Positions 55,136 to 61,579 of a DNA stretch of 64,000 nucleotides are shown here, one piece after another; within the stretch, counting starts at the first letter, position 1; each line of letters starts with the position of its first letter. Below the pieces are notes generated by a model. It made no database searches. It saw only the letters and a program-made list of their open reading frames with translations, and was not told the origin of the DNA. Both the position numbers and the translations under genes were made by a program. Origin of the DNA: Nocardia carnea (GTDB lineage: Bacteria; Actinomycetota; Actinomycetes; Mycobacteriales; Mycobacteriaceae); assembly GCF_029868855.1 (NCBI RefSeq), contig NZ_JARWOV010000298.1, positions 1 to 64,000 of the forward strand, read 5' to 3'.

Positions 55136-56542
55136 TCAGACCGGCAGCAGCCGCGAGACCACGGCCGTGAGCTGGGACGCGGACCGGCATTCGTGCATTT
55201 CGATGACCTGCTGGTAGCGGTCGGCGGCCGAATCCCCGGACCCCCAGTTCTGGCGCGGCTCGGGGTTCAGCCAGTGGGCGTGCTTGGCGACGGCGACCAG
55301 CTCGGACAGTGTGGACAGTTCCGGATCGCGGTAGTTGGTGCGAGCGTCACCGAGGATCAGCAGCGAGCTGCGGCTGGTGACCGCATCGGCGAATCCGTCG
55401 GCGAAGCTGGTCAGTGCGCTGCCGTAGTCGGAGTGGCCGTTGAAGCCGACGATATCGGCCTCGGCGAAGATCCGCTGCATGGCCTCGTCGAGCTGGGTAT
55501 GGGGATCGAAGAACCGGGTCACCTCGTCGGTGTTGTCGACGAAGGCGAAGATACGCACCTTCGAGAACTGTTCACGCAGGGCGCTCACCAGCAACAAGGT
55601 GAAATTGCTGAATCCGGCGACCGAACCGGATACATCGCACAGCAGCACCAGCTCCGGGCGGCCGGGCCGCGGTTTGCGATTCACCAGGTCGATCGGTACC
55701 CCACCGGTCGACATGGATTTGCGCAGCGTTTTCCGCAGGTCGATCTCACCGCGCCGGGCATGCCGCCGCCGGACCGCCAGCCGGGAGGCCAGTATCCGCG
55801 CAAGCCGTTGGGTGCTGCGTTTCAGCTCGGCCAGTTCGTTCTGCGAGGCGCGCAGGAAATCCACGTCCTCGGCCTGCCGTGCGACCCCGTACGAAGCGAC
55901 CCGCTCCCGGCCGATCCGTTCGGCCACCCGCCGCCGCGTCTCGGCCTCCACCGTCCGGCGGAAGTTGTCGATCCGGCCGCGGGCCGCCCGGCGCGCGATC
56001 TCGGTTTCGAAATCGCTCATATCCGGTGTGGTCATCCCGGCCAGGATCTGCGCCAGCAGGGTCTGCGGCTGAATCTCCTTGAGCGCCTGATACGAGGAGA
56101 ACGACGCGCCGCGCGCCGACTGGTACTGCCCGAGCTGTTCCACCAGCTGCGCGGCCATCAGTGCCTGCGCGCCGGCGGAGTTCTCGTCGGCGAGCATTTC
56201 GGCCAGCATCTTGCGCAGCGCGGGAACGTCGAGCCGGCCGTCGTCACGGTACGGCAGTTCGATCTCCCCGGCGGCGTCGCGCTCACCGATGGCGATGGGG
56301 AACCACAGGTCGAACAGGCCGTCGTAGGTGGCGCGGTGGGTGGTGCGCCGCAGCAGGGCACAGGCCAGACCCTCCCGCACGGCTTCCCGGTCCAGGAGAT
56401 CGAGGACGGACAGCACGCGGCCCGCGTCCACCGTTTCCGAGGGCCCCACCGGGATCCCACGCGCCCGCAGTGCCTCCACGAACCCCACCAGATGCCCCGG
56501 CAGACCGTGCGGGGCCAGCGGCCGGTCCTCGGCGACCGCCAT
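55136..56542 (-). CDS. VWA domain protein, CoxE-like
   Basis: A 468-residue CoxE/VWA protein. The N-terminal two-thirds is helical (GLPGHLVGFVEALRARGIPV at the start), and the C-terminal VWA domain carries a MIDAS in LLCDVSGSVAGFSNF. The ATG lies 2 bp after the MoxR-type ATPase gene. MoxR-VWA pairs act as chaperones that insert metals or assemble complexes; the client here is unknown. The pair sits beside proA in mycobacteria (Rv2425c-Rv2427c), but here is separated from it by an insertion. Confidence 0.92.
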   Translation of the reverse strand: MAVAEDRPLAPHGLPGHLVGFVEALRARGIPVGPSETVDAGRVLSVLDLLDREAVREGLACALLRRTTHRATYDGLFDLWFPIAIGERDAAGEIELPYRDDGRLDVPALRKMLAEMLADENSAGAQALMAAQLVEQLGQYQSARGASFSSYQALKEIQPQTLLAQILAGMTTPDMSDFETEIARRAARGRIDNFRRTVEAETRRRVAERIGRERVASYGVARQAEDVDFLRASQNELAELKRSTQRLARILASRLAVRRRHARRGEIDLRKTLRKSMSTGGVPIDLVNRKPRPGRPELVLLCDVSGSVAGFSNFTLLLVSALREQFSKVRIFAFVDNTDEVTRFFDPHTQLDEAMQRIFAEADIVGFNGHSDYGSALTSFADGFADAVTSRSSLLILGDARTNYRDPELSTLSELVAVAKHAHWLNPEPRQNWGSGDSAADRYQQVIEMHECRSASQLTAVVSRLLPV

Positions 56543-56544
56543 GA

Positions 56545-57438
56545 TCAGACCGGCTTCAGCTCGGCCAGCGCGCGCTGGTGGTCGCTGCGGTGTTTCAGCA
56601 CGACCCCGAGGGTTTCGCGCACCGTCGTATCGTCGAGGTCGGTATGCCCGAGCGCGAGCAGGGTGCGCGCCCAGTCGATCGTTTCGGCGACCGACGGCAG
56701 TTTCTTCAACTGCATCCCGCGCAGTACGTGCACGATCCGCACCAGCTGCGCCGCCACGGCCTGCGGGAGTTCCGGTACCCGGCTGGCCAGGATGCGCCGC
56801 TCCAGGTCCTCGTCCGGGAAATCCAGGTGCAGGTACAGGCAGCGCCGTTTCAGCGCCTCCGACAGTTCCCGGGTGGCATTGGAGGTCAGGACCACGAACG
56901 GTTTGCGGTCGGCGGTGATGGTGCCGAGCTCCGGAACGGTGACCGCGAAATCGCTGAGCACCTCGAGCAGCAGCCCCTCGATCTCCACATCGGCTTTATC
57001 GGTTTCGTCGATGAGCAGTACCGTCGGGTCGGTCCGCCGGATGGCGGTGAGCAACGGCCGCGACAGCAGGAATTCCTCGGTGAACACATCGGCCTTGGTC
57101 TCGGCCCAATCGTTGTCACCGGCGGCCTGGATGCGCAGGATCTGCTTGGCGTGATTCCACTCGTAGAGCGCCCGCGCCTCGTCCACACCTTCGTAGCACT
57201 GCAACCGCACCAGTTCCGCGCCCGAAGTCTGCGCCACCGCACGCGCCAGCTCGGTTTTCCCGACACCCGCCGGACCCTCGATGAGCAGCGGCTTACCGAG
57301 ACGATCGGCGAGGAAGACCGAGGTCGCGGTTGCCTTGTCGGCCAGATACCCGGTTTCGGCAAGGCGGTGCTGTACGTCGTCGACCGACGCGAAGATCGGC
57401 TCCTGAACCGGCGGGATGGGGGAACTCGCGGGCTCCAT
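56545..57438 (-). CDS. MoxR-family AAA ATPase
   Basis: 297 residues from ATG 57438 (MEPASSPIPPVQ), with GGAAGGA upstream. Walker A LIEGPAGVGKTELARA, Walker B VLLIDETDKAD and sensor 1 VVLTSNATRELSEAL define a MoxR ATPase. It is paired with the VWA protein downstream. The first ~20 codons and the ribosome-binding site are duplicated at 60171-60265, next to proA, which suggests this gene once followed proA directly. Confidence 0.93.
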   Translation of the reverse strand: MEPASSPIPPVQEPIFASVDDVQHRLAETGYLADKATATSVFLADRLGKPLLIEGPAGVGKTELARAVAQTSGAELVRLQCYEGVDEARALYEWNHAKQILRIQAAGDNDWAETKADVFTEEFLLSRPLLTAIRRTDPTVLLIDETDKADVEIEGLLLEVLSDFAVTVPELGTITADRKPFVVLTSNATRELSEALKRRCLYLHLDFPDEDLERRILASRVPELPQAVAAQLVRIVHVLRGMQLKKLPSVAETIDWARTLLALGHTDLDDTTVRETLGVVLKHRSDHQRALAELKPV

Positions 57439-57473
57439 GGGCGTCCTTCCGTCGAACTCTGCCCACCCCACGC
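57377..57473. repeat. Direct repeat copy 1, 5' end of moxR
   Basis: These 97 bp (first 21 codons of moxR, its ribosome-binding site and ~35 bp upstream) recur at 60171-60265 in the same orientation with one substitution and a 2-bp deletion. The copies bracket the ~2.7-kb insertion. Confidence 0.9.
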
Positions 57474-57558
57474 TACCGGGAGCTTGCTCGACAGGCCTTG
57501 TCCCCCACGGCCGAGAGACCTGGGTCACGGCCGAGCCGACCGACCGCATACGCTCGTT

Positions 57559-57850
57559 TCATCCGAGGTACGCCCGTCGAGATTCGAACTGGCGCCGGAC
57601 CTCGCCATCGCTGTCGGCGATGACGGGGCGAGGGTCGGTGTAGATGCCTACGAGCCCAGCGATCTCGATATCGAGGCCGGTTTCCTCTTCGACTTCGCGC
57701 ACAGCGCAGCCGGGAAGACCGTCCGTCATCTCCATACCCCCCGGGCAGCGCCCACGGCCCGCTGTCGGCGCGCCGCTGAAGCAGTCGACGCGGCGCTACC
57801 CCGGCGGTCCCGAGCCGCCGAGGGGCTACCTGTGACCCAGTTCACAGTAC
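57559..57850 (-). pseudogene. NUDIX hydrolase remnant
   Basis: On the minus strand one frame reads APRRLLQRRADSGPWALPGG and the next frame, from 57735, reads MEMTDGLPGCAVREVEEETG and on to a TGA at 57559. Joined, they give the NUDIX box G-x5-E-x7-REVEEETG of a pyrophosphohydrolase. A frameshift at the GGGGGG run (about 57736-57743) breaks the gene, and the 3' half is missing after QFE. It lies at the moxR-side junction of the insertion, so it was probably cut by the event. Not functional as read. Confidence 0.75.
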
Positions 57851-57855
57851 ATGAC

Positions 57856-57882
57856 TGTCACGTCTACCCATCCTGCCCTGTC
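57856..57882 (+). promoter_or_regulatory. ECF41-like promoter upstream of the FAD oxidoreductase
   Basis: TGTCACG (57856-57862), 16 bases, TGTC (57879-57882). The published ECF41 consensus is TGTCACA near -35 and CGTC near -10, normally found upstream of the oxidoreductase-type gene beside the sigma gene. Each element here differs from it by one base. Confidence 0.5.
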
Positions 57883-57924
57883 CCATAGCCGACCCCTACG
57901 AACGAGCCGCACAGGGAGCACGAC

Positions 57925-59160
57925 ATGACCACCACCGCCCACGAGATCATCGTCCTCGGCGCCGGCTACGCCGGCCTGATCGCCACCGCCCGGCTGGCCC
58001 GCTACATCCGCAGGCTGAACACCCGGATCACGCTGGTGAACCCCTCGGCCCGCTTCGTCGAGCGGCTGCGCATGCACCAAGTCGCCGCGGGTCAGGAACT
58101 GACCGACTTCCAGATCCCGGACCTGCTGGCCGGCACCGAGGTGGAGTTCCACCAGGCCGCCGCCACCGCCATCGATCCCGCCGCCCGCACCGTCACCCTC
58201 GACGACGGCACGATCCTGCGGTACGACCGGCTGGTCTACGCGCTCGGCAGCACCACCGACACGAGCCGCGTTCCCGGCGCGGAAGACCACGCGTGGACCC
58301 TCGACGATCCACGGATGGCACACCACTTCGCGCAGCGATTGCCCGAGATCGCCGCTGCCGGGGGTGCGGTCACCGTATGTGGTGGCGGGCTCACCGGAAT
58401 CGAAGCGGCCGCCGAGATCGCCGAGGCGTATCCGGAACTGACCGTCACCCTGGTGAGCGCTTCCGAACCCGGGGCCATGATGGGTGCGAAGGCCCGCGGC
58501 TACCTGAACCGAGTACTGGACCGGCTCGGTGTGGTGCGCATGGCCGGGGTGAAGGCCACCAAGGTGCTGCCCGACGCGGTGCGGCTGGACACCGGCGAAC
58601 TTTTGACGTCGGATCTGACACTGTGGACCACCGGCGTGCGGGTGTCCCCGCTCGCCGCCGAGGCCGGCATCGAGACGGATGCGAACGGGCTCGTCGTCAC
58701 CGACCCGGCACTGCGTTCGGTATCGCACCCGGAAATCCACGCCATCGGCGACGCCGCGCTGGTCCAGCAGGCGTGGGGCCGACTGCACGGCACCTGCCAG
58801 AGCGGCGTGGTCACCGCCGACTACACCGCCACCGTCATCGCCCGGCAGCTGCGCCGGAAGAAGGTGAAGCCGTTGCGCTTCGGGTACTTCCACCAGCCGG
58901 TGAGCCTGGGCCGCAAGGACGCGGTTGTCCAGTTCACCGAGGCCGACGACACCCCGAACCGCTGGTACCTCAGGGGTAAGGTCGCAGCCATCTATAAGGA
59001 GCAGGTCAGCAGCACCCCGCCGGTGGCCGCGAAGATGACCCGATACGTGAAACTGCCGGTGCAGCTGTCCCAAGGTGGCCGAGCCACCCGCTCGACGCCC
59101 ATCATGACCCGAGTCGGAGCCGAGGGACCACCGGTCCCCCGGCTCAGCACAGGCCGGTAA
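57925..59160 (+). CDS. NAD(P)/FAD-dependent oxidoreductase, NDH-2-like
   Basis: A 411-residue flavoprotein of the type II NADH dehydrogenase group. FAD motif IIVLGAGYAGLIATARLARY, NAD motif VTVCGGGLTGIEAAAEIAE and the FAD-closing IHAIGDAALVQQ are clear. The C-terminal membrane-binding helix of true NDH-2 is not obvious, so it may be soluble. GGGAGC precedes ATG 57925. It is followed after 11 bp by an ECF41-type sigma factor gene and is the likely target of that factor. It lies inside the insertion. Confidence 0.9.
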   Translation: MTTTAHEIIVLGAGYAGLIATARLARYIRRLNTRITLVNPSARFVERLRMHQVAAGQELTDFQIPDLLAGTEVEFHQAAATAIDPAARTVTLDDGTILRYDRLVYALGSTTDTSRVPGAEDHAWTLDDPRMAHHFAQRLPEIAAAGGAVTVCGGGLTGIEAAAEIAEAYPELTVTLVSASEPGAMMGAKARGYLNRVLDRLGVVRMAGVKATKVLPDAVRLDTGELLTSDLTLWTTGVRVSPLAAEAGIETDANGLVVTDPALRSVSHPEIHAIGDAALVQQAWGRLHGTCQSGVVTADYTATVIARQLRRKKVKPLRFGYFHQPVSLGRKDAVVQFTEADDTPNRWYLRGKVAAIYKEQVSSTPPVAAKMTRYVKLPVQLSQGGRATRSTPIMTRVGAEGPPVPRLSTGR

Positions 59161-59171
59161 GGATCACAGCC

Positions 59172-59888
59172 ATGCAGGACCATTACCGTCAGCCGGCTAC
59201 AGCGCATGAGGCAAACGATGCCTCCGTCGACCCGTTCATCGAACATCGCCGGCTACTGTTCGGCACCGCCTACAACTTGCTGGGCAGTGTCGCCGACGCC
59301 GAGGACATCCTGCAGGAAACTTGGTTGAAATGGCATTCCGTGGACCATGATTCGGTAACCCACCCCAAGGCCTACCTGGTGCGCACGGTCACCAATCTCG
59401 CCCTCAACCGACTGACCTCCGCCCGGGCCACTCGCGAAACCTATATCGGCCCATGGCTTCCCGAACCACTCATCACCGCACCGAGCGCCGCCGAGGAGAC
59501 CGAGATGGCCGATACCGTATCGACGGCAATGCTCGTCGTGCTCGAAACCCTGAGCCCCACCGAACGAGCCGTATTCGTGTTGCGCGAGGTGTTCGGCTTC
59601 TCGCACGGCGATATCGGTGGTTTCCTCGACCGACCGGAGACCGCCGTCCGCCAGATCGCCCGCCGCGCCCGATCACATGTACAGGCACGCCGGCCCCGTT
59701 TCGACACCGACGAGGCAGCGCGCAGTGAGATCACCGAGAAGTTCATCTCGGGCTGCCACGGCGGCGACCTCAACGCCCTCATGACACTGCCAGCGCCCGA
59801 CGTGACCCTGTGGAACGACGGAGGCGGCATCGTCACCGCCGCCCGCTGTTCGGCCCCGACCAGGTGGCCCGATGGCTACTCGGTGTGA
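59172..59888 (+). CDS. ECF41-type sigma factor, frameshifted in its C-terminal domain
   Basis: As read, 238 residues. Sigma-2 spans ~25-85 (YNLLGSVADAEDILQETWLK), the ECF41 linker motif WLPEP is at 95-99, and sigma-4 spans ~118-165 (AVFVLREVFGFSHGDIGGFL). ECF41 factors carry a C-terminal SnoaL-like domain with a DGGG motif; it is present at 216-219 (WNDGGGIVTAAR), but the frame then leaves the family sequence and ends after GYSV. The remainder continues in the +2 frame to 60082. The sigma domains are intact, so a truncated but DNA-binding factor is possible. Confidence 0.85.
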   Translation: MQDHYRQPATAHEANDASVDPFIEHRRLLFGTAYNLLGSVADAEDILQETWLKWHSVDHDSVTHPKAYLVRTVTNLALNRLTSARATRETYIGPWLPEPLITAPSAAEETEMADTVSTAMLVVLETLSPTERAVFVLREVFGFSHGDIGGFLDRPETAVRQIARRARSHVQARRPRFDTDEAARSEITEKFISGCHGGDLNALMTLPAPDVTLWNDGGGIVTAARCSAPTRWPDGYSV

Positions 59889-60082
59889 TGGCCAAACCGA
59901 CCTCCGCCGGCATCCGCCTGGAATCCGCGATAGTGAACGGGGAAGCGAGCATCGTCGGTGTCATCGGCGGCTACCGGATCGGCGCGTTGACCTACGACAT
60001 TCACGACGGCCGCATCGAGAACATCCGATTCCAGGTCAACCCGGAAAAGCTGGGCGGAATCCAGGAATCAGGCGCCACCTGA
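59840..60082 (+). pseudogene. Out-of-frame SnoaL-like end of the ECF41 sigma gene
   Basis: From 59840 the +2 frame reads RPLFGPDQVARWLLGVMAKP and continues to GGIQESGAT and a TGA, the normal end of an ECF41 SnoaL-like domain. The break lies in a GCCGCCC-type run at about 59835-59848. Family sequence would need seven more bases (one more GCCGCCC unit), so loss of one 7-bp tandem copy is the simplest cause. Sequencing or assembly error cannot be excluded. Confidence 0.8.
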
Positions 60083-60170
60083 TCAAGATCGGAGCCTCGA
60101 GCTACCCGCTCCCCACCTCGGTGCCGATGGAATTCGCCGTCGCATACCCCCTGCGAAGGCGTCCCATTCA
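60083..60170. other. End of the insertion, no gene
   Basis: Short stretch between the sigma-gene end and repeat copy 2. Nothing recognisable; the proA-side junction is expected at its right edge. Confidence 0.4.
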
Positions 60171-60265
60171 TCGTCGACCGACGCGAAGATCGGCTCCTGA
60201 ACCGGCGGGATGGGAACTCGCGGGCTCCATGGGCGTCCTTCCGTCGAACTCCGCCCACCCCACGC
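60171..60265 (-). pseudogene. Direct repeat copy 2, truncated moxR start
   Basis: 95 bp matching 57377-57473 with one substitution and a 2-bp deletion in a G run. On the minus strand it keeps the GGAAGGA ribosome site and the ATG, then MEPASSHPAGSGADLRVGRR and a TGA: codons 6 onward are shifted by the deletion. It lies 48 bp downstream of proA, where moxR itself would be expected. It is a remnant of the original moxR 5' end or of the recombination that placed the insert. Confidence 0.85.
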
Positions 60266-60313
60266 CGAACACAGCTCCGAGGTGCGGAACCCGTCAGCGA
60301 GGGCGGAGCAGTT

Positions 60314-61579
60314 CTACGCCGGGCGGATCTGGCCCGATCCGCGGACCACCCACTTGGACGAGGTGAGTTCCGGCAGGCCCATGGGCCCGCGGGCGTGCAG
60401 TTTCTGGGTGGAAATACCGATCTCGGCGCCGAAGCCGAACTGCTCGCCGTCGGTGAAGGCGGTGGAGGCGTTGACCATGACCGCCGCGGCGTCCACCCGG
60501 CGGGAGAACTCGTCGGCCGCGGCGAGTTCGCCGGTGACGATGGCCTCGGTGTGGCCGGTGCCCCAGGTGTTGATGTGCTCGATCGCCGCGTCGAGATCGT
60601 CGACGATTTTCACCGCGATATCGAGGGTGAGGTACTCCTCGGCCCAATCCTTGTCCGTGGCCGGGACCATACCGTCGAGATCGCCGTGCAGGGTGACCCC
60701 CTTGTCGGTGAGAGCCTTGCCCAGCCGCGGCAGCGCGGTGTCGGCGATGGCGGCGTCTATCAGCACGGTTTCGGCGGCATTGCACACGCTGGGCCGGCGG
60801 GTTTTGGCGTTGATCAGGATCTCTTCGGCCATATCCAGGTCCGCGCCGGAATGTACATAGACGTGGCAGTTGCCGGTACCGGTCTCGATGGTCGGCACCT
60901 GGGCGTCGCGCACCACGGCGTTGATCAGGCCGGCGCCGCCGCGCGGGATCACCACGTCCACCAGACCGCGCGCCTGGATCAGGTGGGTGACGCTGGAACG
61001 GTCCTCGCTGGGCAGCAGTTGTACCGCGTCGGCCGGCAGACCAGCGTCGGTGAGCGCGGACCGCAGCACCTCGACCAAGGCCGCATTCGATCGGGCCGCC
61101 GACGACGACCCCCGCAGGAGCGCAGCGTTACCCGATTTCAACGCCAACCCGAAAGCGTCCACGGTGACATTCGGCCGGGCCTCGTAGACCATCCCGACCA
61201 CCCCGAGCGGCACCCGGACCTGCCGGATCTCCAGTCCGTTCGGCAGGGTCGACCCGCGTTCCACCACGCCCACCGGATCCGGCAGGGCCGCCACCTGGCG
61301 CAGACCCGAGGCGATCCCGTCGACCCGGTCCTTGGTGAGCCGCAGCCGGTCCAGCAGCGAATCCTCGGTTCCGGCCGCTTTCGCCGCCACCAGATCCTCG
61401 CCGTTGGCTTCCAGCACGGTATCCGCGGCGGCCAGCAGCGCGTCCGCCGCCGCGTGCAGCGCCTCGTTCTTCTGGGCCGTGGTGAGCTGGGCGAGCACCC
61501 GGGACGCTACCCGTGCCCGGCGGGCGGCCCCGTGCACGGCCTCGCGCATATCGAACTCAGCGGTGATCTCTGCCGTCAT
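60314..61579 (-). CDS. proA: Gamma-glutamyl phosphate reductase
   Basis: 421 residues, ProA of proline synthesis, reducing glutamyl-5-phosphate to the semialdehyde with NADPH. Family stretches [39 protein letters not shown], the Cys nucleophile region [15 protein letters not shown] and [20 protein letters not shown] are all present. Normal length. It is divergent from the ribokinase gene. In mycobacteria the moxR-like gene follows proA directly; here the insertion intervenes. Confidence 0.97.

Follow-up and report, generated by a model that had tools for sequence, protein, structure and literature searches.

The proA-moxR junction in this 64,000-nucleotide stretch of Nocardia carnea DNA (the window) raises the question of how 2875 bp came to lie between the moxR start codon and the proA stop codon, with a copy of the moxR start at either end, and whether the DNA so bracketed is an excisable element or the trace of some other event. 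We approached it by comparing the window with itself and with related loci, comprising the 20 nearest relatives and 40 further Nocardia loci, plus 80 loci of named genomes that partly repeat the 60. The 60 loci come largely from the head of a similarity ranking, with a few skipped, and are not a random draw. The proA-moxR gap was measured in 141 loci, 7 of which had no proA match and were dropped.

The repeated moxR start and its flanks

Comparison of the window with itself by blastn (E <= 1e-6, at least 45 bp, at least 85% identity) gave the pair 57377-57473 and 60171-60265, both on the minus strand, as the sole dispersed repeat of its class. The two copies align as direct repeats in blocks of 44 nt at 100% and 54 nt at 98% identity, offset by 2794 and 2792. 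This bears out one substitution and one 2-bp indel between the copies, as an earlier note on this DNA had described. At the base composition of the window, chance would yield about 1e-15 exact 44-mer pairs and so does not explain this one. The same self-comparison of 60 other proA-moxR loci (540 kb) yielded two pairs: the nearest relative (G037) has a proA fragment, and G117 a tandem repeat. The locus contains the following features.

56545 to 57438, minus strand: moxR-type AAA ATPase gene, the working copy (Pfam AAA and AAA_5)
57377 to 57473, minus strand: copy 1 of the repeat, being the opening 62 bp of moxR plus 35 bp upstream, reaching the first bases of box A
57470 to 57480, minus strand: box A, ACGCTACCGGG on the plus strand, conserved upstream of moxR and straddling the repeat end
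57500 to 57519, minus strand: box B, conserved upstream of moxR
57586 to 57784, minus strand: NUDIX relic, both ends missing relative to the G037 gene (201 bp at 81% identity)
57925 to 59160, plus strand: FAD/NAD(P)-dependent oxidoreductase gene, open frame of 411 aa, apparently gained (Pyr_redox_2, E 2.8e-35)
59172 to 60082, plus strand: ECF41/SigJ-type sigma gene, apparently gained, frame broken near 59850 (Sigma70_r2, Sigma70_r4_2)
60118 to 60173, minus strand: DUF397-like 3' stub, cut off at the start of copy 2 (79-83% identity over 46-58 bp in 4 loci)
60171 to 60265, minus strand: copy 2 of the repeat, a dead moxR start with its own 2-bp deletion and substitution, ending inside box A
60266 to 60313, minus strand: 48-bp segment beside proA, resembling the proA side of relatives by shuffle test
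60314 to 61579, minus strand: proA, glutamate-5-semialdehyde dehydrogenase (PRK00197, E 3.4e-177)

With R and R' for copies 1 and 2, the order reads moxR-R-upstream-NUDIX relic-[FAD oxidoreductase-ECF41 sigma]-DUF397-like stub-R'-proA. Domain and family searches together with alignment confirmed the genes previously called here (moxR, the FAD oxidoreductase, a frame-broken ECF sigma gene and proA); the stub is newly seen. The moxR and VWA genes adjoin, with at most 204 bp between them, in 61/61 Nocardia loci measured. The best NCBIfam model for moxR was MadB_ATPase, with 307 bits for a cut-off of 475, and across 55136-57438 the moxR and VWA proteins both fall far under the MadB and MadC cut-offs (307/475 and 173/600 bits).

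The repeated start appears to be peculiar to this genome. We searched 150 genomes of the genus, its own included, with the moxR 5' end, which was matched in 144 of them (own one counted). Among the matches listed, a second copy (at least 80% identity, at least 40 bp) was present only in the window's genome; five first-look candidates were scored per genome, so weak second copies elsewhere could escape.

Two conserved sequences distinguish the copies. Box A is found exactly, 30-33 bp from the moxR ATG, in 17/61 loci, namely the window and its 16 nearest relatives, and within one mismatch in none of the remaining 44. Box B, allowing 4 mismatches, is present in 14/61 loci, each among the 17 with box A, and in 0/44 others. 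Conservation and fixed distance suggest that the boxes form a predicted promoter. Both stand whole beside copy 1; copy 2 keeps only the first four bases of box A.

Shuffle tests on the flanks point the same way. The 75 bp past copy 1 match the moxR upstream region of relatives, and in 13 of 17 none of 300 shuffles scored as high. Past copy 2, the 48 bp resemble instead the proA side in 3/17 relatives (5/300 shuffles in G037, 1/300 in G122 and 2/300 in G106); against the moxR upstream side of the 17 they gave no comparable match, the best being 16/300 in G037. This segment is probably left over, in part, from the ancestral spacer occupant. The flank comparison thus supports the earlier assignment of copy 1 as the working moxR start and copy 2 as a dead one. 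It also bears out the distance of 48 bp between the end of copy 2 and the proA stop. It contradicts the claim that copy 2 sits exactly where moxR does in relatives: in the 15 nearest (L109-L123) the moxR ATG and the proA stop are 119-2306 bp apart, and all 15 carry the box A that copy 2 lacks.

Copy 1 is 88-98% identical to the equivalent site in those 15 relatives. The 2-bp deletion of copy 2 is found in 0/17 relatives, and its substitution is missing from 16/17. A separate two-base shortening is common to copy 1, copy 2 and G037 and is lacking in the 16 other aligned relatives. Because it is restricted to both copies and G037, copy 2 derives from the moxR of this lineage, which speaks against the earlier proposal that foreign DNA brought the repeat. 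On sequence grounds, copy 2 is a dead duplicate of this lineage's own moxR start, without function. The base left of the repeat is A at copy 2 and in 15/17 relatives and G at copy 1, which only hints that the duplication predates the change at this position in copy 1, since the base at copy 2 may belong to the stub.

Older and apparently gained parts of the insert

The DNA between the copies is of more than one age. A longer NUDIX gene (Pfam NUDIX) occupies the same site in G037, so the relic in the window is an older occupant that was there before the insert. G055 and G122 carry remnants of the same NUDIX cassette. That the relic is older than the insert at this site is the simplest reading of these sequences. 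As acquired parts there remain only the FAD-sigma pair and the stub, which look gained. The view that the whole stretch is foreign therefore stands in part, in that the FAD-sigma pair looks gained in this lineage, and falls for the NUDIX relic.

FAD and sigma genes were found in the proA-moxR spacer of none of the 60 other Nocardia loci, where the sole trace was a 50-bp match at 78% identity in G106 (E 0.004). We accordingly rejected the idea that the whole insert is ancestral; nor, among these 60 loci, are repeat and insert ancestral in all relatives, an outcome that the earlier note had named as fatal to its own account. Homology of the pair to other Nocardia spans mostly ~57830 to 60080, beginning at 57793 in one genome, and in 10 loci compared around the pair the matches reach no further than the pair itself.

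The pair is 79% identical to a pair that G037 carries at a different location, as against 91-92% for moxR and proA. Weak matches to it occur in five close relatives (G036, G038, G054, G055 and G122; E 3.6e-4 to 3.6e-40, two candidates scored per genome). We built a tree of the FAD gene that took in 26 of the 29 other pair loci, leaving out L152, L154 and L157. In it the window has a long end branch (0.12) and a path to G037 of ~0.29, and is weakly joined with G037 and G113 (88/86), apart from the in-clade G057, G094 and G100. From this weak join, the pair may be an older acquisition shared with G037 and G113. A plasmid search returned 73 matching records, one of them at 80-90% identity, and no close donor; the only record covering at least 80% of the query was a Streptomyces plasmid at 73.6% identity. 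No support emerged for the FAD gene being viral: a search that reaches close relatives only gave one unconfirmed pattern match in viral_contigs.

Sigma70 regions 2 and 4 with an adjacent oxidoreductase make up the pairing of an ECF41 sigma factor with COE, and DNA matches reveal the same pairing in other Nocardia. In PMC3426412, the oxidoreductase-first order in the same direction is counted 107 times (29%) for ECF41 with COE. As in the arrangement described there, the sigma gene of the window directly adjoins a Pyr_redox_2 oxidoreductase, with the oxidoreductase first and both in the same direction; unlike it, the sigma frame is broken. The gene shows a 7-column gap against 7 homologues, and the broken frame scores below the cut-offs of the SigX4 and SigJ models. 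As to a fused C-terminal regulatory domain, the 90-aa frame downstream of the break near 59850 gave no Pfam match. With its sigma frame broken, the window's pair probably escapes the usual mode of regulation.

The stub matches the ends of open reading frames in 4 loci, reading for example DEWDAFAKGVADGEF. Its DUF397-like identity is putative, and no Pfam match was obtained for it. Among 30 loci, the window included, a DUF397-like end stands beside a FAD-sigma pair only in the window, where the match is weak (E 0.095). At the join between stub and copy 2, at least TCG is common to both sides, extending to ATCG or CATCG if the lost parents had the sequence of the window or its relatives. The right-hand join, between copy 2 and the proA side, has no demonstrable microhomology.

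Histories of the locus

Most likely, the insert is an ordinary scar left by the repair of a DNA break and not a neatly excisable mobile element. More specifically, we give a probability of about 0.5 to end-joining repair that captured foreign DNA together with a local 95-bp filler. An older accessory cassette (NUDIX and neighbours) would already have lain between proA and moxR in this clade when a break arose in the dispensable spacer in the window's lineage. The break would have been healed by illegitimate end joining, probably through Ku and LigD. The repair would have captured a fragment with the ECF41 sigma gene, its partner FAD oxidoreductase and the DUF397-like stub. As filler it would have taken in 95 bp from the moxR start close by, and these became copy 2. 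We infer that a single such event placed pair and filler, with end joining as the agent. Foreign DNA plus local filler yields the observed order in one step.

Several elements of this history rest on direct evidence: the order of the pieces, the copy that keeps the ancestral upstream region, the longer NUDIX gene of G037, the fact that the relatives examined have no second copy, and the presence of Ku (1 match in the genome) and of the LigD primase-polymerase (3 matches), all over the cut-off. A matching template for the filler, copy 1, lies intact 2.8 kb away. Repaired breaks in Streptomyces ambofaciens offer a precedent (PMC5869714): there, 1-6 nt of microhomology occur in half of the scars, and five scar inserts measure from 30 bp to 18.8 kb, including two (42 and 83 bp) that stem from a nearby region and one (30 bp) that matches the start of a transposase. 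The likeness lies in short pieces of nearby chromosome at a healed break in an actinobacterium with end joining. The difference is that the S. ambofaciens scars were induced in the laboratory, whereas the one in the window is natural, lies beside an acquired pair of ~2.25 kb and has a pathway that we deduce. Several points tell against a repair scar. The microhomology at the stub join is partly reconstructed, and no donor of the insert came to light; a 95-bp filler with an intact template requires copying or capture from a sister chromosome; and the proA-side identity of the 48 bp rests on only 3/17 relatives.

The same order would result from a tandem duplication spanning the moxR start through the DUF397-like gene, followed by deletion of most of the second unit so that 95 bp were left by proA. 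The stub/copy 2 boundary would then be the duplication join and the boundary of copy 2 with the proA side the deletion join. The nearest relative lends this some credit, since its proA fragment (55 bp, 91%) is of the kind that partly deleted tandem units would leave. Yet the scheme requires two events, and the full duplication was seen in 0/61 loci; moreover, a duplication older than the split from G037 would have given copy 2 more than two changes, given that the spacer differs by ~19-23% between the genomes. We regard this history as possible and on the whole rather unlikely. A false assembly join at the 95-bp repeat is hard to credit, although the genome is a draft in 347 contigs: two differences separate the copies, the stub matches nothing else in the genome at E <= 0.01 (6/36 first-look candidates scored), and the alternative pairing would strip box A from moxR, against 16/16 nearest relatives.

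Mobile DNA and simple integration were set aside on the order of the ancestral flanks, whether as target-site duplication, Campbell integration or a site-specific element. Target duplication, or a crossover within the repeat, would produce moxR-R-insert-R-upstream-proA, unlike the order observed. A Campbell-like single crossover with a circle carrying the moxR start, one of the routes named in the earlier note, does account for acquired DNA bracketed by direct repeats of a resident gene end. It is disfavoured by the ancestral upstream region and NUDIX relic, which adjoin copy 1 and not copy 2; the circle would have had to carry both, with the resident ones then deleted up to box A, and we hold such a course to be very unlikely. 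Least probable of all is a transposon or integrative element that made a target-site duplication and could excise again. Direct repeats do bracket the insert, but they also enclose the host upstream region and the NUDIX relic, and the duplication does not abut the element on both sides. Target duplications are also usually shorter than 95 bp. The FAD and sigma frames and 10 further insert frames of at least 80 aa gave no Pfam match to a transposase or integrase (NCBIfam was applied in the insert to the FAD and sigma frames only), in keeping with the earlier remark that no recombinase was left behind.

The preferred reading, a break-repair scar, bears on what the repeats could do. Judged from the sequence, recombination between copies 1 and 2 would delete ~2.79 kb, and with it box B and what remains of box A beyond the repeat, leaving proA and moxR 83 bp apart without the conserved upstream sequence. 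Because the boxes would be lost, the ancestral junction would not be restored, contrary to the earlier expectation that precise excision returns it. A repeat-bracketed insert can therefore pass wrongly for an excisable element where the order of ancestral flanks argues otherwise. In an actinobacterium equipped with Ku and LigD, the locus is a naturally occurring example, at the level of sequence, of DNA gained along with a filler copied locally. The predicted effect of recombination between the repeats is the loss of the conserved boxes upstream of moxR.

The proA-moxR spacer across Nocardia

Comparison of the proA-moxR junction in relatives, a check that had been proposed for this locus, established that loci without the insert exist. 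The median distance from moxR to proA is 202 bp in the 20 nearest relatives, 62 bp in the 40 further Nocardia and, in other genera (56 loci), 13 bp. Spacers of at least 1 kb occur at 5/61 Nocardia loci: the window, G037 (2306 bp), G106 (2202 bp), G126 (1053 bp) and G135 (4591 bp). We examined the five longest frames per insert. The G037 insert encodes a NUDIX protein and a DUF5919 protein, that of G106 a 2OG-Fe(II) oxygenase, and the one frame tested in G135 had no Pfam match. A Fic/Doc-family protein is encoded in the spacer of G126 (L172), where a toxin-antitoxin-like gene may have landed.

The insert of the window is like accessory genes lodged between conserved neighbours, which at these 5/61 loci span 1-4.6 kb and have unlike contents. 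It differs from the other spacer inserts in its moxR-start copy, which is found only in the window, as a proA fragment is only in G037; flanking-gene fragments were sought in spacers >70 bp, present at 29/60 other Nocardia loci. The fragment in G037 (L109, 5763-5816 and 8029-8083 as fetched) is 55 bp at 91% identity to its own proA. Found at the moxR side of its cassette, it mirrors the moxR fragment in the window and fits filler repair and duplication-deletion alike.

A broader proposal is that the spacer of this clade is a break-prone slot, in which end joining repeatedly captures foreign cassettes and copies the ends of flanking genes to the far side, the moxR start in the window and the proA fragment in G037. 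We consider this unlikely. If true, the slot would document in nature how end joining in bacteria makes filler from a template. As a control, moxR-VWA gaps of at least 300 bp occur in 0/61 loci, and gaps of at least 1 kb between proA and putative rbsK matches in 20/56. The latter count tempers any claim of a hotspot: the proA-moxR slot is not unique, and the opposite side of proA varies too. Among top-ranked literature matches, judged by title and the opening of the abstract, no paper on this locus was found.

Some spacers carry repeats of their own. In G117 (L116, 8645-8888), a GC-rich repeat of ~120 bp stands in tandem at 97.5% identity. By eye, parts of a similar sequence can be made out in the proA-moxR spacers of G069 (L119) and G115 (L122), which gives the repeat the look of an interspersed family. 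The moxR-proA spacer of G054 (L111) contains short tandem repeats with units CGGCCACT.
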